DNA of 64,000 nucleotides from an uncultured Flavobacteriales bacterium (GTDB lineage Bacteria > Bacteroidota > Bacteroidia > Flavobacteriales_G > Salibacteraceae), in contig CAJVZZ010000014.1 of NCBI GenBank assembly GCA_913020435.1, positions 1-64,000 on the forward strand, in the 5' to 3' direction. Below, piece after piece: positions 47,660 through 61,571 of this stretch (its first letter is position 1; each line of letters starts with the position of its first letter). Made by a program: the position numbers and the translations under genes. Below the pieces are notes generated by a model, which was not told the DNA's origin, ran no database searches, and was given only the letters and a program-made list of their open reading frames with translations.

Positions 47660-48007
47660 TTAACCCAATACCCGTTTGACAACTGGCCCAAACACTGGAA
47701 GCTTATCTGAAGGTTGCCCTAGATCTACGTAAGCATAATCATCATTTCCCTTATAGGTTAATTTAAAATATCCATTTTCATTTGTTGAACCAGAGGAAAC
47801 TTGTTCGGTGGTACTTGAGCTAAAATTGTGTTGAACTTCAGCTAATAATGTAATTGGATAATTAGGTAGAGGTGTCTTGCCATCTTTATCGTACATAGTG
47901 CCTTCTATGGTGTAGCTCTCGTTCTTGAGAATTTCTGGTTCTAACAGGTTCTTCTTGCAACTTATCAGGCTAAAAAAAGCAATAAAAATTATAAGTGAAG
48001 TTCTCAT
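47660..48007 (-). CDS. Small lipoprotein with a transthyretin-like/CarboxypepD_reg fold
   Basis: A 115-residue lipoprotein with lipobox SLISC (Cys17). The segment YTIEGTMYDKDGKTPLPNYP and STNENGYFKLTYKGND are the characteristic strands of carboxypeptidase-regulatory-like beta domains found in Bacteroidota surface proteins. It stops early for this family (ending VVKRVLG), so it may be shortened. It starts two bases after the end of the T9SS tail fragment at 48010, as if it were the second gene of an operon whose first gene has been destroyed. Confidence 0.75.
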   Translation of the reverse strand: MRTSLIIFIAFFSLISCKKNLLEPEILKNESYTIEGTMYDKDGKTPLPNYPITLLAEVQHNFSSSTTEQVSSGSTNENGYFKLTYKGNDDYAYVDLGQPSDKLPVFGPVVKRVLG

Positions 48008-48009
48008 AA

Positions 48010-48145
48010 TTAATGAATTACTAATTTATATTGCTCGCGTATTCCGTTGTGTTGCACTTCAACAAAATACAACCCTTTTGTAAATGGTTTTACTGATAAT
48101 TGCTGTTCATTGTTTCCTGCTTGACCAACAAAAGACAAACAACAT
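48010..48145 (-). pseudogene. Orphan C-terminal fragment of a T9SS-secreted protein
   Basis: About 40 codons on the minus strand, ending in a normal stop at 48010. They read LSFVGQAGNNEQQLSVKPF then TKGLYFVEVQHNGIREQYKL, the last two thirds of a type A sorting domain. Upstream the sequence turns into unrelated DNA with no start and no protein body. The gene was therefore cut, leaving its 3' tail. Confidence 0.75.
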
Positions 48146-48552
48146 TGCCAAACTACGGGAGGCTGGCTGTTGACTCAAATTGAAAAATCGGTACACTTAA
48201 GTTCCACTAGAGAGAAAGAACGCAACCAGTTTTTTGCAAAAATTGTGGTGGAAATAGGAGCCCTTATGGATAAGGTTGTGAAGGAGCAATAGAGGTGTAA
48301 TTCAAATCCAAGAATTTTTGTATTCGGCAGTCATTCTGAATTTATTTCAGAATCTCAAACACCACTATAATAGTAAAATGCTAGAGCAACCAAATGATCA
48401 ACAACATTATCGCGGAGAAAATACTAAGTTAAGTTACTTAATAATAAGGAGACTCTGAACAGCTAATTCTCAGAATCATCTTTCGGCGGACTGGTTCATT
48501 TACGCTTTCAAGATGAGGGTGGCAACTGGATGACGTCTAAAAATAAATACTT
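48146..48552. other. Debris region with one coding-like frame and a palindromic repeat
   Basis: On the plus strand a startless frame of about 55 codons (48125-48292) ends with RNQFFAKIVVEIGALMDKVV and a TAG. It overlaps the T9SS fragment on the other strand and I do not recognise it. The rest holds the second palindromic repeat copy and no supported gene. The mixture suggests past recombination or deletion between the dehydratase and PurF-like genes. Confidence 0.45.
48330..48357. repeat. Dispersed palindromic repeat (REP-like), copy 2
   Basis: Matches the left arm of the 26582 element at 25 of 28 bases and keeps the internal palindrome TTCTGAA/TTCAGAA. A degenerate candidate for its right arm lies at 48448-48479, giving a longer loop of about 90 bases. 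Confidence 0.75.
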
Positions 48553-50454
48553 CTAATAAGCCCTATCGTTATTTCCTTCGTAATAATATTGGTAAGATTT
48601 ATTCACCACTCGGTTGCCACCTGGAGTAGGATAATTACCTGAAAAATACCAGTCTCCCGAATGATTTGGACATGCAATGTGCAATCCTTCAATAGACTGA
48701 AAAATAACATCCACAGCAGTTTTACAATCGGGTGGTGTGACTAATTCAGCAACTTTAGCAGAAATTTCTTCCATTTTAAAAGCTGAATAAATCTCTTTCA
48801 CTACATTGATTTGCTGATCCATTGGCAAAGCCAATTGTTCCTTAGCCTTTATGTAAACCTGTTTCATTATTTTTTCATTGCCACGTTCTTTGTGGAGCTC
48901 AACGGCAGCTCTAAAAGCAATAAAATCACCCATTCGCGCCATGTCTATTCCATAACAATCTGGGTATCGAATTTGAGGGGCTGAAGATACGATAACAATC
49001 TTTCTTGGCTCCAAACGGTCTAACATTCGTATGATGCTTTTCTCAAGAGTAGTGCCACGAACAATGGAATCATCAATCATTACCAAAGCATCTTTCTTTG
49101 GAATAATAGACCCATAAGTAATGTCGTACACATGTGCTACTAGATCATCTCGACCGTCATCTTGAGTAATGAAGGTTCTAAGTTTCGCATCTTTTATAGC
49201 AACCTTTTCAACTCGAATTTGCTGGTTTAGAATATCCTCAATTTCCTTTTGAGTAATTGAGTTTCCGAGCTTTATCAATTTCTCGGCTTTTTGCTTATTC
49301 AACAAGGTATTCATTCCTTCTACCAAACCTAAAAATGAAGTCTCAGCTGTATTTGGAATAAACGAAAAAACAGCGTTTTTGTGGTCGCTTTCTATAGCCT
49401 TCATTACCTGAGGAACTAATGATCGACCTAAGTTTTTACGCTCTTTGTAAATGTCTAAATCACTTCCACGAGAAAAATAAATACGTTCGAAAGTACAAGC
49501 CGTTTTCGACGTGCTTTCTATGATATTCTCCTCAGTAATAGTTCCATTTTTCTTAAGAATCAAAGCATTTCCCGGACCCAATTCTTGAACGTCTTCTGCC
49601 TTAATATTTAATGCAGTTTGAATAGCTGGCCGCTCAGAAGCAACTACCGCAATTTCGTCATCTTGGTAATAAAAAGCTGGTCGAATTCCGTTAGGATCTC
49701 TAAACACAAATGCATCTCCATGACCAATCATTCCAGACATTACATAACCACCATCAAAATCTTCTGCAGAATTTTTCAGGATTTGGACCACGTCCAAATT
49801 CTCAGAAATCTTCTCTGTTATCTCTTGGTTGGAGTAACCTAATGCCTTGTACTTATCGAATAATTCTTCATTTTCGACATCTAAAAAGTGCCCAATTTTC
49901 TCCAAAACTGTTACCGTATCTGCTTTCTCTTTTGGGTGTTGGCCCAACTTCACCAATAGATCAAATTGCTCGTCAACATTAGTCATATTGAAGTTTCCAG
50001 CTATAACTAAGTTCCTGGTCTTCCAATTGTTTTGTCTTAAAAAAGGATGGCAAGCTTCTATAGCGTTGTTGCCATAAGTGCCATAACGTAAATGTCCTAA
50101 GAAAAGCTCACCACTAAAAGGTGCATTTTCTTTTAACCAATAAGGATCTTTTCCTAACTCATGGTTTTCTCCAATACGTTCTTCAAATCGCTTATAAATG
50201 TGTTCGAAAACGTCTTGAATGGGTTTGTTAGAAATAGATCGCTGACGCGAAATATATCGTTTACCTGGGGCAACATCGAGTTTAATGTTTGCCACTCCTA
50301 CTCCATCTTGACCGCGATTGTGCTGCTTTTCCATTAGCAAGTACAATTTGTTGAGGCCGTAGTGAGCAGTTCCGTATTTTTTCTGGTAGTAGTCTAGTGG
50401 TTTGAGTAATCGAATGAGGGCGATACCGCATTCGTGTTTGATGAAATCACTCAT
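48553..50454 (-). CDS. PurF-like amidophosphoribosyltransferase, long Bacteroidota form
   Basis: An N-terminal glutamine amidotransferase domain with the nucleophile Cys9 (MSDFIKHECGIAL) precedes a phosphoribosyltransferase domain with the PRPP loop VMIDDSIVRGTT. A C-terminal extension ends GGNRVVNKSYQYYYEGNND. The start at 50454 leaves a short propeptide before Cys9; the frame also extends to 50493. About 633 residues compares with about 500 for classical PurF. I recall Bacteroidota genomes carrying this form in addition to a classical PurF. It probably makes phosphoribosylamine, but a specialised role cannot be excluded. Confidence 0.9.
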   Translation of the reverse strand: MSDFIKHECGIALIRLLKPLDYYQKKYGTAHYGLNKLYLLMEKQHNRGQDGVGVANIKLDVAPGKRYISRQRSISNKPIQDVFEHIYKRFEERIGENHELGKDPYWLKENAPFSGELFLGHLRYGTYGNNAIEACHPFLRQNNWKTRNLVIAGNFNMTNVDEQFDLLVKLGQHPKEKADTVTVLEKIGHFLDVENEELFDKYKALGYSNQEITEKISENLDVVQILKNSAEDFDGGYVMSGMIGHGDAFVFRDPNGIRPAFYYQDDEIAVVASERPAIQTALNIKAEDVQELGPGNALILKKNGTITEENIIESTSKTACTFERIYFSRGSDLDIYKERKNLGRSLVPQVMKAIESDHKNAVFSFIPNTAETSFLGLVEGMNTLLNKQKAEKLIKLGNSITQKEIEDILNQQIRVEKVAIKDAKLRTFITQDDGRDDLVAHVYDITYGSIIPKKDALVMIDDSIVRGTTLEKSIIRMLDRLEPRKIVIVSSAPQIRYPDCYGIDMARMGDFIAFRAAVELHKERGNEKIMKQVYIKAKEQLALPMDQQINVVKEIYSAFKMEEISAKVAELVTPPDCKTAVDVIFQSIEGLHIACPNHSGDWYFSGNYPTPGGNRVVNKSYQYYYEGNNDRAY

Positions 50455-50490
50455 AAATTTATTGTGGCAATGTTTATAATTGTTGCTCCA

Positions 50491-50498
50491 CAAATTTA
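50491..50498 (-). promoter_or_regulatory. Candidate -7 box for the PurF-like gene
   Basis: Minus strand reads TAAATTTG (TAnnTTTG), 36 bases before the ATG at 50454. It supports the shorter start, since the upstream ATG at 50493 overlaps the box. Confidence 0.5.
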
Positions 50499-50599
50499 GG
50501 CTTTATTCTAGGTTAGCTTGGTGTATTATCAGGTCATTATTTTTTGCAAAAAACCTAATTGTTTCGTGCCGTTTTCTGCTATTTTTTGCCTTTAAAACC

Positions 50600-51769
50600 T
50601 TAGTCCACAACAACCAACTTCTTTTTGGTGTGAAGTCCTTCAACATCTACCATATGCAGCACATACAAGCCAATGGCAAAATCTGAAATATCAATTTCTA
50701 AACTAATATTTGTATTTCTTTCACTTGCATACACGTGTTGCCCTCGAAGGTTGGAAATATGGAGTGAGTTTAAAGTTTTATCGCTTCCTATTTCTAAAGT
50801 AACCGAACCCATACTCCTGCTTACTGGGTTGGGATACAACTGCAAGTGAGAAATGCCTTTTTTCTCGGCTACCGTGGTAAACGTATCTGCCATCCAAGAA
50901 CAGTCGGTGGCCATCATTTCTTCATAAGTACTTGCTCCTTTACCGTTCTGTTTAAGGTCAGATGTATTGAAGTTGTCTTTATCTCTCTGGTTAAGGTTTT
51001 GATAATAAGCATCGATTCCATCGCGTAAAACACAAAGGTCTTTTAGAATAGGGTTATCATATATTGCAGGTACAATCCATAAATTTTTCATTTGACCTCG
51101 AATACTATCTAATAATATATTATCCTTAAGGTCTAAACTTTGGTACTTACTAGATAAATTTAAATCCAGATACCTCAAACTGCTATCATTTACTATTGAC
51201 AAATCACCTGCCGCTCCATTTGGATCATTAATTATGAGACGTTTTATTTTGTTGTCGTAAAAGTAAACTCTATTGGAAAATCTACCTCCCCTAGGATTTT
51301 CACTCACGTCTTTAAAGTTTAATTCGAATTGTTCCATATCTTGGTTTGAAATCCATAATTCGGAGTTATACTGAAAAAAACCAGATGGAGGAAATGATTT
51401 TAAGGAAGGACAGTTATTAATTCCAACAAGACTTCTATTTATATTTTTTAAACCCGAAAAAGTTTTTAGACTGGGCATATTTACAAAGTGGATTTGACCT
51501 TGATGGAAGGATTTAAACCAAGGTATATCTGCAATTTCAAAATAAAATAATTTGATGTACATCCACCCATCTTCATCGAAGCCCGATAAGTCTGTAATTC
51601 GCTCCGATTCGGGTAATAAATCATCGTAGTAAAAGTGATAGTAATTGTTTATTGATGTATCCATTACCACTACAAAAGAATCTACCTGTTGTTGTGTTTC
51701 AAATATGATTTGAGTTTTTCCAGTTAAACTCAAAATACTAATAATCAGTATAATAAAATATTTTTTCAT
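50600..51769 (-). CDS. T9SS type A sorting-domain protein, second gene of the secreted operon
   Basis: A 389-residue secreted protein from the ATG at 51769 (MKKYFIILIISILSLTGKTQ, a signal peptide). The middle section has short leucine-spaced strands (LKTFSGLKNINRSLVGI, LRYLDLNLSSKYQSLDL) that resemble irregular leucine-rich repeats. The C-terminus (LQLYPNPVSRSMGSVTLEI to KKLVVVD) is a complete type A sorting signal. It lies 19 bases after the preceding gene and presumably uses its promoter. LRR proteins exported by T9SS are often surface adhesins, but no binding partner is known here. Confidence 0.88.
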   Translation of the reverse strand: MKKYFIILIISILSLTGKTQIIFETQQQVDSFVVVMDTSINNYYHFYYDDLLPESERITDLSGFDEDGWMYIKLFYFEIADIPWFKSFHQGQIHFVNMPSLKTFSGLKNINRSLVGINNCPSLKSFPPSGFFQYNSELWISNQDMEQFELNFKDVSENPRGGRFSNRVYFYDNKIKRLIINDPNGAAGDLSIVNDSSLRYLDLNLSSKYQSLDLKDNILLDSIRGQMKNLWIVPAIYDNPILKDLCVLRDGIDAYYQNLNQRDKDNFNTSDLKQNGKGASTYEEMMATDCSWMADTFTTVAEKKGISHLQLYPNPVSRSMGSVTLEIGSDKTLNSLHISNLRGQHVYASERNTNISLEIDISDFAIGLYVLHMVDVEGLHTKKKLVVVD

Positions 51770-51788
51770 ATTACAATCTTTTTGGTTA

Positions 51789-53711
51789 TTAGTATTCTGA
51801 TAAAGGACAGTCAAACGGTATGGCTTGTTGTAAAAACACTTCAAAGCCTTCGCCACATTCTTCTGGCATGCAGAATGTTTTGTTCAAATGTAGAGTAATG
51901 TTATTGTAATTATAGGTATTGTCGGGTATCGTTGTGCAAAAGGTATTACCCTGGAATTGAACGGCTTGCATTGTGCCTCCTGCATCTTGGTAGCTAAATG
52001 ACCAAATAACATCGCAAGCAGCAGGTACATCAGTAGTGCAGGTTTTTCCACATACTACCAAACTCCAAGTAGAAGGATCGTTAGGATCAGGTCTCAAGCA
52101 GTTTAATGAGTCCTCTAAAGGATCGGCACAAAGCATTTCTGTACCCGGCTCTGCGCAACATTTAATAATTACCGTTTCTTCACAAGAAGAATTTTCGCTT
52201 GTTTTAATAGTGATAATAGCAGGTCCATCAAGAAATACTTGACTACCATACCCAGAAATGTAAATAGTGGTATCGTTAGGGTCTAGAGAAACTGTAGAGA
52301 TGTAATATGTACCCAATAAATCTAAAACATAAGGAAAGTCGCAATTGTAAATTACATCAGGAAAAAGGTCCAACTCTTCAGACCCCCATACCGAATAGTC
52401 TTCTCCATCAATTTGATCAGGCAACAAATAAAGGTACATAGCACCCTTGTCTTTGTATCCAGTTGGGTCGATATATTGAGATCCATAAGTTAAATTATTA
52501 TTTACTGTAACAGCATTTGGTGTAAAAGTAGAACTGGGGTCGTTGCTGTCGTCTAAGGTTCCCAAACGGCCATTTCCCGCAAAATAGATTTTACCATCTA
52601 GGCCCCGCTCTATTTGTCCATGACCAAAATCTTTTGTTGCACTTCCAGATTGCAGTACGTTAAAGTAGAAAAAGTTGGATCCCAAACCAGTTCTTCTGCA
52701 ATGAATAATGTTCTTGTCATTTTCAAAGGTAACGGGGTTAATGGTGTAATACGCAATGGAGGCATAAACAATAAGGCCATCTTCTGAAAATTCTATTCCA
52801 TTGACAGATTGATTATCGTGCGTTATAGATGAATTTTTTGGAATGGGCACCTGATAACTGTTTGTGAAACTAACTGCGGTACCATTGATGGAAACATCAA
52901 AAAAATGTAGTGCTCCTCCGTCATTGTTAATTAAGTCAGGAGCTGAAAAATAGCTGGTAGCCAAGGTATATTTTTCATCTTGTCCTACTTTTTCGTATTC
53001 AAAAATTTCCAATTCAGAACGATTGTTATCTTGAAACATCTCAAATTGAGACAAAGAGGTGTTATTTCCAATAAAATGAATGTCGTCATTTTTTATTTCA
53101 AAAACACCAATACATTTAGGATGCGACATGAACAAAAAGCGAGTTCCGTTTAAATTTTCTTTGGTAACCGCAATGTGGTTGTGATAGTGGGGATGAGGTG
53201 GCTCTTGAGTACCTTCTCCACCATCGCTTCGTGTAAAGTCACACCCTTGGTTTTCATAATGTTCCATAAGTGTCCCGTTGGGCATAATTTGCGCCTGCCA
53301 AGTATTATTTATCTTCTTTATTCGACTGTAAATAAGATAGTTTTCAATGTAATGGTCGCCAATACTAAAGGTTGAAATGGCATAATATTCTCCGCAACCA
53401 AACGGTACAGGCACAAAAGTAAATTCAGAAAACCCCTTGGCCTTTTGTAATGAAACCTTTGGATTAAAATGCTGTACCAATAAATTCCCAGTGGCGTCAT
53501 ATACTGCACCATCAGCGGCATACAATTCCAAAACACCCTGGTCATTGTGCACCGAATTTTGAGTATGGTCGGGTGAGTTTGTTGTGGGCAATGCTGTACT
53601 TGTTCCTGCCTGATAATCAACTAAATGGTTATTAATGGCCCATTTTGTTTGTTGTGCGTTTGCCGTTAAATAAAAAAAGGCCAGAAGAATTGAGAAAGTT
53701 GCTGTTTTCAT
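51789..53711 (-). CDS. Large secreted cysteine-rich protein, first gene of the operon
   Basis: A 640-residue protein from the ATG at 53711 (MKTATFSILLAFFYLTANAQ, signal peptide). Residues about 30-450 look like a beta-propeller region: phrases such as GIEFSEDGLIVYASIAYYTI and GHGQIERGLDGKIYFAGNGR recur at blade-like intervals. The last 150 residues hold about a dozen cysteines (CEETVIIKCCAEPG, CGKTCTTDVPAACD) and end without a recognisable T9SS signal. Such propeller-Cys modules occur in large gliding-type surface proteins, so this may be a truncated relative. It is divergent from the XRE regulator across the operator array. Confidence 0.85.
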   Translation of the reverse strand: MKTATFSILLAFFYLTANAQQTKWAINNHLVDYQAGTSTALPTTNSPDHTQNSVHNDQGVLELYAADGAVYDATGNLLVQHFNPKVSLQKAKGFSEFTFVPVPFGCGEYYAISTFSIGDHYIENYLIYSRIKKINNTWQAQIMPNGTLMEHYENQGCDFTRSDGGEGTQEPPHPHYHNHIAVTKENLNGTRFLFMSHPKCIGVFEIKNDDIHFIGNNTSLSQFEMFQDNNRSELEIFEYEKVGQDEKYTLATSYFSAPDLINNDGGALHFFDVSINGTAVSFTNSYQVPIPKNSSITHDNQSVNGIEFSEDGLIVYASIAYYTINPVTFENDKNIIHCRRTGLGSNFFYFNVLQSGSATKDFGHGQIERGLDGKIYFAGNGRLGTLDDSNDPSSTFTPNAVTVNNNLTYGSQYIDPTGYKDKGAMYLYLLPDQIDGEDYSVWGSEELDLFPDVIYNCDFPYVLDLLGTYYISTVSLDPNDTTIYISGYGSQVFLDGPAIITIKTSENSSCEETVIIKCCAEPGTEMLCADPLEDSLNCLRPDPNDPSTWSLVVCGKTCTTDVPAACDVIWSFSYQDAGGTMQAVQFQGNTFCTTIPDNTYNYNNITLHLNKTFCMPEECGEGFEVFLQQAIPFDCPLSEY

Positions 53712-53735
53712 TTTGATTAAATTAGATTTGGAATG

Positions 53736-53766
53736 CAAAGAGCGTTTGAAATCAATTGAATGTCAA
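53736..53766 (-). promoter_or_regulatory. Possible weak promoter of the secreted-protein operon
   Basis: On the minus strand TTG (53766-53764, within TTGACA) and TTTG (53739-53736) are 24 bases apart, the same spacing as in the rplM promoter, but the TA of the -7 box is missing. The upstream element touches operator 1, so a protein bound there would meet RNA polymerase. Confidence 0.35.
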
Positions 53767-53820
53767 GAAGCTGCGCTTCTATTTTAGAAGCATAGCTTCT
53801 AATTAAGTAGCATCACTTCT
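53766..53820. promoter_or_regulatory. Array of three palindromic operators, 20-bp period
   Basis: Site 1 is AGAAGCTGCGCTTCT (53766-53780) and site 2 AGAAGCATAGCTTCT (53786-53800), both perfect palindromes around three bases. Site 3 is AGTAGCATCACTTCT (53806-53820), a weaker copy. The start-to-start distance is exactly 20 bp each time, about two helical turns, so bound dimers would line up on one face. The array fills the gap between the XRE gene (start 53832) and the divergent secreted operon (start 53711). Confidence 0.8.
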
Positions 53821-53831
53821 AAAACCAACTT

Positions 53832-54274
<443 letters not shown>

Positions 54275-54287
<13 letters not shown>

Positions 54288-55489
54288 TATAACCACTGCG
54301 CTGGATTCATGGTAGTTTGGCCTTTCCAAAGCTCGAAATGAACATGCGTTTGACCCTTTTGTTGATTGGTTTTGGCCTTACCAATTTCTTGTTTGGTGGT
54401 CAGCTTATCTCCTTTTTGTACAAAAACATCTACCAAGTTAGCGTATACACTTATATAAGCACCATGCCTTACCATAACCGCTTTTCCACTACCTGGTAGC
54501 ACAATAACTCCTGACACTTCTCCTTCAAACACGGCTCTAGCTTTACCGTCACCATTTGTGCTTATATCCACACCATTATTATAAATTTTGATTCCTTTAA
54601 GAACAGGATGCCAGTGTTCGCCATAGTATGCAGTAACCACTCCTTTTGAAGTTGGCCAAGGTAACTTACCTTTATTATTCTCGAAATTGCTAGACAAAGC
54701 TTTGGCTTCAGGCGTAAGTACATATTTTCCTTTGCCTTTTCTCCCTTTGTTGGTTTTTTCTATTTCTATTTGGATTATTCTTTGAATTGCTTTTTGAAGT
54801 TTTCGAGATTCTTTTTCATTTTTCTTTATCTCATCCTTAAGCTCTTTTTCTTTAGAGTTTAAATCATTGAATAATTTTTGTTTCTCTCCTATGTCCTCAG
54901 AGAGCGAATTCCGTTCTTGCTTAGTATTCACAATCAACAGTTCCTTTTCTACTTTCTTTTCTTCTAACCTAGTAATCTGTGTGTCCAACTGTATTTTAGT
55001 CAAAGTAATCTGTTCGGCCTGAGCTTGCCTGAACTGGCTGTATTGCTGTAAATACTTCAGTCGTTTATACGCCTGGTTAAAATCTTCACTTGCAAAAACG
55101 AACATAATTTTATCATAGGAACTACGCGTTTTGTAGGCGTGATAAATCATTTTAGCGTACTCATCTTTAAGTGCTTTTAATTCATCTTCTTTTCTGTAAA
55201 TTTCGTTTTTGGTTGCATCAATCTCTCCTTCAATCAACTGCATTTCAGATCTCAATGTAGAAATCAAATTCTCGCGATTCTTGATTTTCATCCGAACCAA
55301 TACCAATTGATTTAAGCTCTTTTTCTTTGTTTTTTTGGTTTCCTTAAGCAACTCATTTTTATAATCGATCTCTTTACGGATTTTCGATTTTTCTTTTTCT
55401 AACGCAGTCCTAGATTTTTGAGCATAAGTACATGGGGTGCTAAAAACAAGCACCAAGCCAAACATAAGTAGCCTAAAAAAGTGACTCAT
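54275..55489 (-). CDS. EnvC-like murein hydrolase activator
   Basis: A 404-residue protein with a signal peptide (about 1-23), a long coiled coil (about 25-250) and a degenerate LytM domain (about 280-404). Of the zinc ligands, the first His is replaced by Asn (IYNNGVDIST), while Asp and the HVHFEL motif remain. It is therefore most likely an activator of cell-wall amidases rather than an enzyme, like EnvC and NlpD. It overlaps the DUF4292 gene by 17 bases upstream and runs convergent into the XRE gene downstream. Confidence 0.92.
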
Positions 55490-56279
55490 ACTTCAAGGAT
55501 ATTGATAATGGATAGGATTGCGTTTCTGGTTGCGTAATTTTCAAATTCTCTGCTTCAAATGACATTCTTTCAGCTCCTATAATCACATAATTTGCCTTGA
55601 CAGGAATGGGTATTCCATTGGTAGTTTTACGCTCCAATATTTGAGAAGTAAAACTCTTCTTAGTTTTTGATTCTGATATTTTACTCTTAGCAATTAAGAA
55701 CTCTTCACCCGCGTACCACTCAGTATATATCTGCTGTTGAGTTTTTATTTCTCCTTTGGGTTTTTTAAACTCTAATTCACTTAGTCCTGCAACTATGTAA
55801 TTCCCTTTTGAGGTATAGGAGCGTACTTTCTTGTATTTACTTTGATCATAAGGTTCTCCTAAAATTGTTGCTTGTAACGAAGAAAAATTGAACGGCACAT
55901 TGTATAAATTTTGAATAAATGTATAGCCTCCTAGGTAGTATTTTTCATTTTTTCGGTCTATCATTTTCACGCTATCCTGTGTAAAAACAAAGCGCGCAAC
56001 CTCAACCTTATAATACGTAGCAGATATCCAAATAATACTATCTCGTTTCATTCGGATATGCATTTTGAAAGAATCAGAAAGCTTGGGTGTTTTAAAATAA
56101 ACTTTGGATTTTATAGCCAAAAGGCCCTTCATTTTTGGGTTAGTACTGTTCTTTACTAAGATCTCTTGAGGCGTTAGTTTATCAAGGTTACTGCGCTTTC
56201 TATTAATTTCTTGCGTCGTCTTACATGAAAATAATACCGTGCTAAAAAGCATTAAAAAAAGAAATCCTAATTGTTTCAT
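55473..56279 (-). CDS. DUF4292 lipoprotein
   Basis: A 268-residue lipoprotein with lipobox LFSC (Cys19). The beta-rich body has the family pattern KGLLAIKSKVYFKTPKLSDSF and RMKRDSIIWISAT, reminiscent of LolA/LolB-type half-barrels. DUF4292 is confined to Bacteroidota, and its fixed neighbours are a TPR protein and an EnvC-like factor, so a role in outer-membrane or division-site maintenance is plausible but unproven. It overlaps the EnvC-like gene and follows the TPR gene by three bases. Confidence 0.92.
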   Translation of the reverse strand: MKQLGFLFLMLFSTVLFSCKTTQEINRKRSNLDKLTPQEILVKNSTNPKMKGLLAIKSKVYFKTPKLSDSFKMHIRMKRDSIIWISATYYKVEVARFVFTQDSVKMIDRKNEKYYLGGYTFIQNLYNVPFNFSSLQATILGEPYDQSKYKKVRSYTSKGNYIVAGLSELEFKKPKGEIKTQQQIYTEWYAGEEFLIAKSKISESKTKKSFTSQILERKTTNGIPIPVKANYVIIGAERMSFEAENLKITQPETQSYPLSISLKYESLF

Positions 56280-56282
56280 ATT

Positions 56283-58034
56283 CTAGGGAATGTAGGTTTT
56301 CTTTTTAATTTTTTCATCAATCTTGTCTGAAGCATCGCCCATTTCCTTGGCCATGCTCCAATGCTTTAAAGCTCCTTCAATATCATTTAGATGAAAGAGA
56401 ATGTCACCATAATGCTCCACCAAAACCCCTTGTGTATTTCCGCCATTGTTCAGCGCAACTTCCATGTACTTCTTTGCTTCCTCATATTCTTGATTCATAA
56501 ACAATATCCAAGCATAAGTATCCAAATAAATTGCTGAATTAGGTTCTTGTTCAATTGTTTTTTTAGACATGGTTTTGGCCTGCTCCAGTTTCTCACCTCT
56601 TAGCGATAAATAATAGCTGTAGTTGTTAAGCACTAATATATTATTGGGTTCTAATTCCAAACTCTTATCGAAATTAGCGTCGGAATTTTTATAGTTCTTC
56701 AAATTATGGTAAGCCTCGCCTAATGTCGAATACAGTTGCACCAAAAGCTGATTATTGTCCATAATAAAATCCTTTCCCGTTTCGAGAACATCAATAGCTT
56801 CCTTGTAATTCTTCATTTGGTTGGCTCCAATTCCTACTAGGTAATACAGGGTTCCTTGGCTAGGAAATAATTCAATAGCCGCTTTGCCATCGGTATACAT
56901 CGCCAACCAATTTTCTTGATCGGAGTGAATAAATAAGACACGATTCCAAATCAGAAATTGATTTGAATCGATAGCCAGACTTCTCTTGTAAGCAGCTAAA
57001 CTTTTATCTTCTTGTTTATTTTGAAATAGAAGATCAGCCTCGATTGCATGGATCTGAGCATTCAGTGGATGAGCAATCTTCATAGAATCGATTAACTCAA
57101 ATGTAAATTCATCAACCTTTCCCGTGCTTTTATCTTGCTTCATCACATTGTTCAATAAGATTCTGCCCTTACTTTCAAAATCTAAACCTGGATTTCTGAA
57201 AGCTTTTCTTAATAATTCTTGACCTTTTTCAGTATTGCCATCTTCCATATAATATGTGGCCATTGAAAGCTGAACAAGGGCATTGTTAGGGTCCAATTCA
57301 AGCAGTTTCTTATAGGTCTCAGTTGCTTTTTCTTTTTGACCTGCTTTACGATAAACATCCGCTAAATTGTTATAGTATTTCGGCGTTCCTGGAGCAGAAT
57401 CAACCAATTTCTGAGCTTCGACAATAGCCAAATCGTATTTTTTGACACCAAGGAGTACTTGTTGTCTTTGCATAACTACTAGTTCTAATATTCCAAATTT
57501 TCCTTCAATCTTATCGTAAACCTTCATGGCTTTTTTGAGGTCGTTTTGGTACAGATACATTCTCGCTTCACCTTCATAGTAAGCCAATTCCTTTGAATTT
57601 ACAGCAATAAGAGCAGCATAGGTTTTTGACCCTTTTTCGTATTGTTTGGTTTGCTCGTATAATATAGCTTGTGACTGCAAATACCATTTATTATTTGGTT
57701 CAAGCGTAGTCGCTTTTTCTATAAATAACACGGCATCAGAAAACCTCGATTGTGTTTGATAAATACTTGACAACTCAAAAAGACTTGCACTGTGGTTGGG
57801 GTCTACGGCTAAACATTGCTCATAATACTTTTGAGCAGCGGCATAATTACTCAGAGCCTTCTCTCTACTGGCTTCAAAGAAGAGATTCTTTAATTGAATT
57901 TCATCTTTTTGGGACAGTGTTGATCTGTTCTTAATCGCTGTTCCATCTTGTTTTATTTTCTTAGAACTCGAACAGGAGCCCAACAAAAAAACCAATCCGG
58001 TTAACGCAAAAAATAATTGAATGCTTTTTTTCAA
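56283..58034 (-). CDS. Tetratricopeptide-repeat lipoprotein
   Basis: A 583-residue lipoprotein with lipobox LLGSC (Cys21) and about a dozen TPR units from residue 50 on (for example ALSNYAAAQKYYEQCLAVDP, DANFDKSLELEPNNILVLNN). The array probably forms a superhelical scaffold at the outer membrane's inner face. It is the second gene of the nucleotidyltransferase-TPR-DUF4292-EnvC operon, with gaps of nine and three bases to its neighbours. No catalytic domain. Confidence 0.93.
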   Translation of the reverse strand: MKKSIQLFFALTGLVFLLGSCSSSKKIKQDGTAIKNRSTLSQKDEIQLKNLFFEASREKALSNYAAAQKYYEQCLAVDPNHSASLFELSSIYQTQSRFSDAVLFIEKATTLEPNNKWYLQSQAILYEQTKQYEKGSKTYAALIAVNSKELAYYEGEARMYLYQNDLKKAMKVYDKIEGKFGILELVVMQRQQVLLGVKKYDLAIVEAQKLVDSAPGTPKYYNNLADVYRKAGQKEKATETYKKLLELDPNNALVQLSMATYYMEDGNTEKGQELLRKAFRNPGLDFESKGRILLNNVMKQDKSTGKVDEFTFELIDSMKIAHPLNAQIHAIEADLLFQNKQEDKSLAAYKRSLAIDSNQFLIWNRVLFIHSDQENWLAMYTDGKAAIELFPSQGTLYYLVGIGANQMKNYKEAIDVLETGKDFIMDNNQLLVQLYSTLGEAYHNLKNYKNSDANFDKSLELEPNNILVLNNYSYYLSLRGEKLEQAKTMSKKTIEQEPNSAIYLDTYAWILFMNQEYEEAKKYMEVALNNGGNTQGVLVEHYGDILFHLNDIEGALKHWSMAKEMGDASDKIDEKIKKKTYIP

Positions 58035-58043
58035 ACTTGTTAT

Positions 58044-59048
58044 TTAACTATTAATTGTACTGTAATCTCCAATACTTAAGTCGTCAAAACTTCGACAATA
58101 TTTTGCAAAATGTCCAATCATTGAATTATCAACAACCGCCTGTTTTACCTCAGAATTTGATTGAATAATAGAGTTTTTAATAACGCTATTTTCAATAATC
58201 GTTCCGCTACCAATACTTACGTGCGGTCCTACAACTGAAGATTTAATAGTCGCCCCTTCTCCAATATAACAAGGTTGAATAATTGTGGAATTTTCAATAG
58301 TAACGTTGGTTGGAATCGACAAACTATCCGCTATAAAACCCAATACACGCTGGTTGCTATCTACCGTCGCATTTTTGTTTCCGCAATCTAGCCAATCCTT
58401 AACCTTGCCGGGATTAAATTGCATGCCTTTGGCCGTCATGTTTCTTAAAGCATCAGGCAATTGATATTCACCATCATTTATAATTGCGTTGTCAATTAAA
58501 TATTGACACTCATCACGCAACGTTTCTCCCGATTTAAAATAGTAGATTCCAATCATAGCCAGATCTGAAACAAAATCTTTTGGCTTCTCTACAAAGTCAG
58601 TAATTACATTCGACTCATTCACTTTCACAACTCCGAATGCACTGGGATCATCAATTTGAGAAACCCACAGCACTCCATCAGAACTTGTATTCATACTAAA
58701 GTCGGCACGGAACAGTGTATCTGCAAAAGCAACTATTGAAGGACCCTTTAAACTTTCTTTAGCACAAAGTATAGCATGCGCTGTTCCAAGAGCTTCCGTT
58801 TGATAATAAATTTTACCCTTAGCACCTAAGCTTTTAGCGATATCTAATAACTGATTTTCAACTGCTTGGCCAAAATCGCCAATGATAAATCCAACTTCAT
58901 CAATTTTTGAACCTGCAACTGCAGCAATATCCTCAACTAACCGCTGAACGATAGGCTTGCCTGCAATTGGAATCAATGGTTTTGGAACTGTTAGGGTGTG
59001 GGGTCTCATTCGTTTACCCATACCTGCCATTGGAACGATTATGTTCAT
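58044..59048 (-). CDS. Sugar-phosphate nucleotidyltransferase with left-handed beta-helix tail
   Basis: A 334-residue protein. The N-terminal nucleotidyltransferase domain has VPMAGMGKRMRPHTLTVPKP with the conserved signature lysine, the FADTLFRADF metal-binding loop and FVEKPKDF. The C-terminal region (about 240-325) consists of hexapeptide repeats (TIENSTIIQPCYIGEGATIK). It should activate a hexose-1-phosphate with dTTP, UTP or GTP; the repeats often carry an acetyltransferase or serve trimerisation. The substrate is not clear from sequence. First gene of its operon. Confidence 0.93.
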   Translation of the reverse strand: MNIIVPMAGMGKRMRPHTLTVPKPLIPIAGKPIVQRLVEDIAAVAGSKIDEVGFIIGDFGQAVENQLLDIAKSLGAKGKIYYQTEALGTAHAILCAKESLKGPSIVAFADTLFRADFSMNTSSDGVLWVSQIDDPSAFGVVKVNESNVITDFVEKPKDFVSDLAMIGIYYFKSGETLRDECQYLIDNAIINDGEYQLPDALRNMTAKGMQFNPGKVKDWLDCGNKNATVDSNQRVLGFIADSLSIPTNVTIENSTIIQPCYIGEGATIKSSVVGPHVSIGSGTIIENSVIKNSIIQSNSEVKQAVVDNSMIGHFAKYCRSFDDLSIGDYSTINS

Positions 59049-59065
59049 TGTTTAAATTTAACTTA

Positions 59066-59073
59066 CAAAAATA
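59066..59073 (-). promoter_or_regulatory. Candidate -7 box for the 59048-54275 operon
   Basis: Minus strand reads TATTTTTG (TAnnTTTG), 17 bases before the ATG at 59048. Confidence 0.45.
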
Positions 59074-59804
59074 GAATAATTGATTGGGCGGGTTTTAACG
59101 ATAGTGTAAAGCTTTCTAAAAATAGAATGTTTAGAATTATATATAATATTCTATTAAAAGAATCCGTTTTGCTTGCTGAGGGTCAGCAGATAGATTTACA
59201 ATGCAAGTAAATCTCCAAATATTGAAATAACCGATTCCCTGTTTTAGTTTTCTATTTCCGGTCTACTGATTGTATACCCCACATTGGTTTCTTAGGGCAA
59301 GAAAAAACATACACCTCCCAAAGGCTCTGTTTTTGACTCCAATGACAAGTCATCGAACACTAGTGAATAGCGGAACTACAGCTACAAGAAGCTACTCAAC
59401 TTAATATTACCAGTGTTGCTAGTGGCCGGAAATATTAAAGTGTTTCAATCTGTAATTAAAAACGCGTTAATCGGTTTTATGTTTAATGAAGAGCACTAAG
59501 GGTTTAGCAACAACCTTGATTAAATCGGATTGTTTTGGGACGGTAAGTTCAATGGCTATTTTGGTGAGATCTTTGATAAAACCTTCATCTCATTTGGGAT
59601 CCGCAATTTTAGTTGTATTCTAAAATGAACTCCAAGCAGTTATCCTACTTAATCTAATATAGATTTAACTACTTTTTCAAAGTTATTTAAAGCATCTAAT
59701 CGTAATTTATATTTTAGCTATGGTGCATTATTTGTGATTAACGCTAATCATTATAAACGAATTCTCTATTAGCTTAGAAATAAGAAGAATAAAAAACCTC
59801 AACT
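59074..59804. other. Long gene-free stretch with decayed frames
   Basis: About 730 bases with no supported gene. On the minus strand 59467-59589 is a 40-codon startless frame with coding-like content (DEGFIKDLTKIAIELTVPKQ, then IKVVAKPLVLF) that I cannot place. On the plus strand there are two shorter ones near 59390-59500 and 59540-59625. The scattered, frame-switching pieces suggest old pseudogene sequence. Confidence 0.4.
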
Positions 59805-61571
59805 ATGTTTTTAAAACAACTTATCACCCTTCTGCTTTTTTGCTCACTTTACACTGGTTTTTCACAAACCGACCCTAAGGTGATTACATCTCCTATATAC
59901 GAGCATAAAAATCCTAGAATTTATGTGCAAGAAATGCTTGGTGAAGAAAATGGTATTTACTACGTATTGTATTCTACTCAACCAGTAAAAACTTCAACCT
60001 TACCTTCTTTATACATCGGCATGTATGCTAATGAAGACATGCATTTGATAAGGTCTCAAAAACTTATTCCTGATAATCCAGATGACCAAAAACGGTATAA
60101 AAACTTTCTTTTAGAAAAATATTTGTTAACCAAAAATGGGCTAATTTTCTTTTTTGAAAACAAAATAGATAAAGTAACAAGAGATGTTTACCTAGGAACA
60201 TTCGACCTAAATCTTAATTCAAAAAAAGATTTTGAAAAGGTTCTGACATATGATCCTTCTCAAAGAGAGTTTATTGGTTTAGCAAACAGTAATTATTCAA
60301 ATACTGTTTTAGCCACAATAAATTACGTTGGTAAGGATGAATCACAGTTTCTTGAATTTAAAGAAATAGATGAAAACTTTGATCTTATAAGTTCAGGAAA
60401 AATTGACATTGAAATAGAATCTACTACTTCAGGCTTTTCGCGCTGGTTTTATGGTGAAAGTACTTTATTGAGTAACGTGTCATTATCCGATCTTGGGATG
60501 ATAACGGGGAGGATTAGTATCCGTCAAGTAGTTACCACGACTAATAAAAGAGGAAAGGAGAAGGTTGATAAAAACGCTGATAAATGGGTTAACACGATTT
60601 ATGTAATGGATATGAAGTCTAAAACCTACACAGAAATCCCAATTAAACTTGATGATCAAAAGAATCTTGATGAAATTATGACAAACACCGACGGCAAAAC
60701 CATCTATGCTGCTGGATTTTATTCTGACTTAACAAAGGCAAAAAAAGGAGGGAATATACATGGTGTTTTTTATATGCGTATAGATGCTAATTCTGGTAAA
60801 TTAAAGTTTAAAAAAGCTACTGATTTTCCTGATGAATTTCTATTTAGAATTAACACCCAAAATACACTGGTTGGGTTGTTTGGAAAGAAAAAAGCAGCTA
60901 CCAGAGAAAACATCTCAAACAACACTCAAATAAGCGAACTTATTATTAATGATGCTACACAAGAAATTACCGCTTACTGTCAGCCAATTAATAATTCTGT
61001 TATCACCACAACTGATCCGAATGGAAATACATCAACTACTTATACCTCGGAAAGAGGGAGCGTCTTCTTTTTCAATATGACAGAGGATGGTGAGTTTAAC
61101 TATTTTAATACAATAAGAAAGTATACTAAATGGTCCAGTAGTAGCTCTGCTATTTGGGACCTAAAATCAATCTATTTAGATCGATCTAAAAATGGAAAAA
61201 AGGATAATCTACTCTTTTCTACACAGCGTATTTACAATGAATATGATAAGTCTGATATTCGAGGAAAGAAAGCGAAGTGGAAGAAAACAAAAAGAGATTT
61301 TTCCATTGCTGCTATCAACAATAAAAATGGTAATTATCAACTGAATCATCCTCAAGAATATATCTCAAAGGACAAAACTAATCTGGGTTTATATCTAAAT
61401 AATATTTCACAGAGTAAAGGCAACCTATACTCATATGGTATAAAGCGAAAGATGAGAACTAGCAGGATAATTACAGCTTTTGCATTATTTCCATTAGCTT
61501 ATATTATCGTAAGCAGCCCTAAATCATATTACCAAAAAGTACAACTTAACCGCATAGAAATAAAGGAATAA
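59805..61571 (+). CDS. Large exported protein of unknown function
   Basis: A 588-residue protein with a signal peptide (MFLKQLITLLLFCSLYTGFS). The body is beta-strand rich with repeated patterns of aromatic and Asp/Gly turns (TNTDGKTIYAAGFYSD, NGNYQLNHPQEYIS), consistent with a beta-propeller. A hydrophobic stretch near residue 552-570 (IITAFALFPLAYIIVSS) is followed by a short basic tail, so it could be membrane-anchored at the C-terminus. No T9SS signal and no family I recognise. It is followed closely by a bidirectional terminator. Confidence 0.8.
   Translation: MFLKQLITLLLFCSLYTGFSQTDPKVITSPIYEHKNPRIYVQEMLGEENGIYYVLYSTQPVKTSTLPSLYIGMYANEDMHLIRSQKLIPDNPDDQKRYKNFLLEKYLLTKNGLIFFFENKIDKVTRDVYLGTFDLNLNSKKDFEKVLTYDPSQREFIGLANSNYSNTVLATINYVGKDESQFLEFKEIDENFDLISSGKIDIEIESTTSGFSRWFYGESTLLSNVSLSDLGMITGRISIRQVVTTTNKRGKEKVDKNADKWVNTIYVMDMKSKTYTEIPIKLDDQKNLDEIMTNTDGKTIYAAGFYSDLTKAKKGGNIHGVFYMRIDANSGKLKFKKATDFPDEFLFRINTQNTLVGLFGKKKAATRENISNNTQISELIINDATQEITAYCQPINNSVITTTDPNGNTSTTYTSERGSVFFFNMTEDGEFNYFNTIRKYTKWSSSSSAIWDLKSIYLDRSKNGKKDNLLFSTQRIYNEYDKSDIRGKKAKWKKTKRDFSIAAINNKNGNYQLNHPQEYISKDKTNLGLYLNNISQSKGNLYSYGIKRKMRTSRIITAFALFPLAYIIVSSPKSYYQKVQLNRIEIKE

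Follow-up and report, generated by a model that had tools for sequence, protein, structure and literature searches.

What acts on three short palindromes that lie between the gene for a small XRE-family regulator and a divergent pair of secreted-protein genes? The stretch of Flavobacteriales DNA analyzed here, 64,000 nucleotides in length, is referred to as the window. The evidence points to the regulator itself. With a probability of about 0.8, dimers of the XRE protein bind at these palindromes, and the protein would be a dedicated local regulator that controls itself and maybe also the divergent operon.

The motif AGAAGCnnnGCTTCT occurs in the window in two perfect copies and one copy with two mismatches, at starts exactly 20 bp apart that leave 5-bp gaps between the sites (Table 1), just as the original prediction had it. 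The array occupies the 120-bp gap between the ORF1 ATG (53711, minus strand) and the XRE ATG (53832, plus strand), and the end of site 3 (53820) does lie 11 bases before the regulator's start codon. When the window was searched for three palindromes with 6-nt arms at equal spacing, allowing up to two mismatches in each of the two further copies, this array was the only one found, and it had no counterpart in 300 order-2 Markov windows. The motif has no other copy in the window at 0 or 1 mismatch, the level at which an earlier statement to this effect holds; three scattered copies (5660, 34379, and 39944) appear at two mismatches, and matches with up to three mismatches number 44 versus 29.2 +/- 5.6 in shuffles. 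Over the whole genome (2.95 Mb), no perfect site was found elsewhere. Five single-mismatch sites were detected, approximately the chance number (6.5 by a uniform-base estimate). Four of these five fall within open frames of at least 100 codons, and none has a partner with up to three mismatches within about 60 bp. The reversed pattern, searched as a control, gave one match. The genome-wide search that had been proposed as a check therefore shows that the motif is not widespread.

Table 1. Coordinates of the features discussed, in positions of the window
Feature	Position	Strand	Description
Operator-like site 1	53766..53780	.	AGAAGCTGCGCTTCT, perfect palindrome, 6-nt arms, 3-nt center
Operator-like site 2	53786..53800	.	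AGAAGCATAGCTTCT
Operator-like site 3	53806..53820	.	AGTAGCATCACTTCT, two mismatches
XRE-family regulator gene	53832..54287	+	151 aa, HTH_3 at residues 8-61, predicted long helical C-terminal tail
(GACA)n simple repeat	54197..54246	+	12.5 copies, encodes QTDR repeats at the XRE C terminus
Candidate -7 box P1, XRE gene	53723..53730	+	TAGATTTG, TTG 21 bp upstream
Alternative -7 box P2, XRE gene	53780..53787	+	TATTTTAG, 5/6 match, inside the array
Weak candidate -7 box, divergent operon	53736..53743	-	GCTCTTTG, preceded at 20 bp by a TTG (53766-53764, minus) that abuts site 1
ORF1	51789..53711	-	640 aa, signal-like N terminus (by eye); start set at ATG 53711 (listed ORF begins at TTG 53738)
ORF2	50600..51769	-	389 aa, type IX secretion sorting domain (Por_Secre_tail) at the C terminus; start moved to an ATG within the listed ORF

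The array and the regulator gene have the same distribution. Among 35 genomes of the family, the array is present in three, those of the window, G001, and G002, and these are the very three that hold a close XRE ortholog (at least 75% identity); G003, from the same genus, has neither. Comparison of the gap in relatives that carry the XRE gene, as the original prediction had suggested, thus found the array in the genomes of the two close orthologs. In a sample of 395 genomes of the class, drawn without G001 to G003, the array is absent from the 394 others, and a 151-bp gap fragment gave, besides the window, short matches only (21 to 50 bp). The XRE protein itself matches 39 of 100 genomes at an E value of ≤1e-3 (the window's own genome included), and besides its own genome only G001 (98%) and G002 (75%) exceed 38% identity. 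Twenty-seven further relatives (23 to 38% identity) have no AGAAGC palindrome with perfect 6-nt arms in the 200 bp upstream. A plasmid search with the protein returned no match, and a viral-contig search returned one relative (32%). In G001, the XRE gene and the array are at another chromosomal place with other flanking genes, indicating that the two stay together when their neighbors change.

The gap is also more conserved than the gene that it precedes. Between the window and G002, the gap is 93.3% identical (119 columns) versus 76.0% for XRE coding DNA (342 columns, with 20 gap columns set aside), a difference with a Fisher p of 1.4e-5; the first 276 nt of ORF1 are 80.1% identical. In an alignment of three sequences, those of the three species that carry the array, 11 gap columns vary: 2/36 in the arms, 2/9 in the site centers, 2/10 in the spacers, and 5/65 elsewhere. 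Conservation is not clearly higher in the arms than elsewhere in the gap, so that constraint extends over the gap as a whole and beyond the arms. Site 2 is perfect in each of the three species, with no change at all. The arms of site 3 are the same throughout, always with two changes, and its center has one change in G002. The left arm of site 1 is invariant and its right arm decays (AGAAGCTGCACTTCT in G001, AGAAGCTGTAC-TCT in G002). As a whole, the site is perfect in the window and has one change in G001; in G002, having lost a base and the right arm, it is degenerate. The equal spacing claimed for the array accordingly persists only in part: sites 2 and 3 keep the 20-bp period in all three species, but sites 1 and 2 are 19 bp apart in G002. 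The proposal that graded site quality encodes an ordered occupancy finds no support as a fixed design, since site 1 varies by species, site 2 is always perfect, and site 3 always carries two changes.

The XRE protein belongs to the HTH_3 family (Pfam E value of 1e-8; 35.5 bits against a gathering score of 23). It falls below the cut-off of every listed NCBIfam model and has generic HTH matches among PHROGs (phrog_8 and phrog_3, E value of about 1e-10). The nearest solved sequences are the 434 repressor (E value of 1.6e-4), C.Csp231I (0.044), C.AhdI (0.052), and SinR. An AlphaFold model has low global confidence (pTM of 0.32) with a confident helix at residues ~90 to 120, and a fold search gave weak matches, none at an E value of ≤0.001, to SinR, HipB, 434, and C proteins, with the first three ranked highest. 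The protein may dimerize through its helical tail. The recognition-helix stretch QKAYSN is unchanged in G002. The 3' end of the gene contains GACA units, 11 to 12.5 of them in the window and 7 and 5 in the two orthologs; among the 35 family genomes, five tandem GACA units were found only at the XRE gene. A repeat unit of four bases breaks the triplet frame, so slippage would alter the C-terminal tail (137 to 151 aa here). Across the three species, the gene has the repeat expected of a phase-variable gene, a non-triplet unit within the reading frame that varies in copy number.

The array, its exclusive co-occurrence with one protein, the conserved intergenic DNA, the uniqueness of the site in the genome, and the HTH family of the protein together give good, though indirect, support to the original prediction that the sites are operators of the adjacent XRE protein. 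From these observations we infer binding, dimers, cooperativity, autorepression, and an effect of either sign on the operon. XRE dimers, made from a gene 11 bp downstream, would occupy the three palindromes; site 2 would be bound best, and sites 1 and 3 would be filled at higher XRE concentrations. The protein would cover its own promoter or leader and so limit its own synthesis. As site 1 abuts a weak candidate promoter of the divergent operon, occupancy may also set operon output, either by exclusion or with the protein as an upstream activator. The most probable target of the regulator is its own gene, with the operon as a possible second target, and a cooperative array on one face of the DNA is possible. 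Points against the operator reading are that conservation is judged from three sequences, that the arms do not clearly exceed the rest of the gap in conservation, that site 1 decays in G002, and that the protein model has low global confidence.

Candidate promoters fit this arrangement to different degrees. The available text of two studies gives TAnnTTTG as the Bacteroidota -7 consensus (PMC6847099, PMC9723704). P1 matches it at 6/6 positions in all three species and varies among them at the two n positions alone (TAGTTTTG in G001, TAAATTTG in G002). Its predicted start near 53735 would place all three sites in a leader of ~97 nt. A G at -10 is disfavored in Flavobacterium johnsoniae (PMC6847099). 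Transcription from P1 would leave the sites downstream of the promoter, where they would act as a roadblock, a less usual arrangement that counts against operators as the best explanation. P2 has a TTG spacer of 21 (20 in G002); judged from the sequence, P2 would have site 1 as its spacer and site 2 over its start point. A sigma-70 and terminator scan of the gap found nothing. In the opposite direction, no -7 box with at least a 5/6 match lies close ahead of ORF1. The box listed there, GCTCTTTG, has only a 4/6 match and yet is conserved in three species. Site 1 had been said to touch a promoter element of the divergent operon, and the minus-strand TTGACA at 53766-53761 indeed has one base in common with it.

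The secreted-protein genes have fared differently from the regulator. ORF1 has no Pfam, NCBIfam, PHROG, or PADLOC match, and ORF2 has no PHROG match. In G001, ORF1 is frameshifted, with five in-frame stops along the match. In G002, it is cut to about 91 residues and followed by an out-of-frame sorting-domain remnant, and the rest of ORF2 is missing. Both genomes are apparently MAGs, and assembly error may lie behind the broken ORFs in each. Neither genome shows damage to the regulator or the sites, except for the decay of site 1 in G002. Between the window and G001, ORF1 and ORF2 form a mosaic, in which most 150-bp steps are 67 to 98% identical and identity is around 50% toward the ORF2 end, and the gap and XRE gene are about 97% identical. 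Because the sites and regulator persist in G001 and G002, where the secreted-protein genes are damaged or lost, autoregulation is the better supported role, and the secreted operon was lowered as a candidate for the main conserved target.

The position of the locus also differs between genomes. The ORF2-ORF1-sites-XRE block (50551-54274) is found in G001 at another locus, beside what we take to be an M48-like peptidase gene, and the homology of the block between the window and G001 ends inside the GACA tract. In the window, the block is flanked by presumably purF-like and EnvC-like genes, named by us from sequence and an M23 domain; this site is empty in G001 and G003. At the place of the G001 block, the window genome has a 44-codon remnant like the ORF2 T9SS sorting domain (G000:C6:98244-98375, L080), hinting at the loss of a second copy or at recombination between sorting domains. 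Inspection of both sites by eye revealed neither a target duplication nor a terminal inverted repeat of a convincing kind, and no transposase was seen in the block. We do not claim transposition, since, given this remnant, differential loss of two paralogous copies plus gene conversion fits as well as movement. ORF1 homologs adjoin ORF2-like genes in G008 and G022. At one G008 locus (L083 1-5327), three ORF2-like genes come in tandem after the homolog, and their C-terminal ends are nearly identical; the third gene runs off the contig end. At another (L084 1119-1655, 1738-3681), a different XRE gene is divergent to an ORF1 homolog across an 82-bp gap, in which no array of palindromes was found.

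One alternative is that the XRE protein is purely a repressor in both directions and that the secreted operon is the target under selection. The base shared by site 1 and the TTG of the candidate ORF1 promoter, the divergent regulator-target layout, and the divergent XRE gene of G008 are consistent with this. However, ORF1 and ORF2 are broken or missing in G001 and G002 while the sites and XRE gene remain, and the G008 gap lacks the array, so that the parallel does not reach the sites; we regard this alternative as doubtful. A sharper form of the preferred explanation, not exclusive of it, is that the protein activates the divergent operon and represses its own gene, similarly to restriction-modification (R-M) controllers. 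The ORF1 direction, having only the conserved 4/6 box whose TTG abuts site 1, would suit activation, and with an ORF1 start predicted near 53731, the site centers would fall at about -42, -62, and -82. C proteins, in the available text of one study, activate from the left site and repress from the right (PMC4321490). On the other hand, the ORF1 start is only a prediction, Bacteroidota promoters can be without a clear -33 box according to the available part of another study (PMC6847099), and the gap is conserved though two of the three species have a broken ORF1. An activator-repressor switch is rather improbable.

Action of the palindromes as hairpins in an RNA leader appears very unlikely. 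Use of P1 would put all three sites in the leader, and the leader of the window has a better fold than its shuffled versions (z of -3.0). This advantage fades to z values of -1.95 and -1.17 in the orthologs, changes in site 1 break the stem with no compensating change seen, no Rfam match was found at an E value of ≤0.1, and DNA binding explains the co-occurrence of protein and sites more simply. Chance or a functionless tandem-repeat expansion, although the spacing can be read as a 20-bp repeat of 2.4 copies, is hardly credible given the dyads, the conservation above coding DNA in three species, and the 0/300 simulations.

The preferred reading, operators of the adjacent XRE protein, pairs a site sequence with one protein by comparative evidence alone and so offers a ready binding test. 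To our knowledge, operator sites are rarely known for the many small XRE regulators of Bacteroidota, and no description of this family and site was found in the open PMC literature (XRE operators, T9SS, repeat-tailed HTH, UBA6770). A core that outlives its cargo, with a repeat in its tail, might serve as a model for a drifting switch of surface proteins in marine bacteria. It is quite unlikely, but conceivable, that the operators, the XRE gene, and the frame-shifting (GACA)n tail are together the core of a small portable cassette. In such a cassette, a self-limiting regulator would move to a different chromosomal site from one sister species to another and carry exchangeable surface-protein cargo, often broken or recombined; slippage in the repeat would switch its C-terminal tail, and cargo expression would vary from cell to cell as a result.

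Several known systems resemble this arrangement. SinR is the top structural match (1b0n_A, E value of 4.7e-3) and shares an HTH with a helical tail; its DNA site differs from that of the array, and no SinI-like partner was noted here. HipB, an autoregulator of its own operon with multiple operators, has an HTH fold among the top structural matches, but no HipA toxin partner accompanies the XRE gene, the NCBIfam HipB model scores 25.3 bits against a cut-off of 79, and neither ORF1 nor ORF2 matched a toxin family; the protein was not assigned to HipB or the type II antitoxins. The repressor and Cro operators of lambdoid phages (lambda, 434, and P22) are, as here, three short dyads between divergent genes, and 434 repressor is the nearest solved sequence. 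Unlike those systems, the XRE gene has no phage genes noted beside it, its product has no peptidase domain, and its sites have equal 20-bp spacing. The R-M controller proteins C.Csp231I and C.Esp1396I are, like the XRE protein, small dimers of the HTH_3 type with palindromic sites ahead of their own genes. No restriction or methylation gene was found among the neighboring ORFs inspected (48000-60000), and the XRE neighbors are the secreted ORFs and the purF-like and EnvC-like genes. C proteins also differ in the gaps between sites (18 versus 5 bp here), the XRE tail is longer and helical, and the sequence match is weak. In the available text, the C.Csp231I sites are CTAAGN5CTTAG, 15 bp as here (PMC4321490), and C.Esp1396I binds three operators (PMC3758141). 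The array thus has tandem palindromes of the C-box type ahead of its own gene in layout only, as the sequence differs. By analogy with the lambdoid, HipB, and R-M C-protein operators, which the array resembles, the switch proposed here would be of an ordinary and familiar kind.
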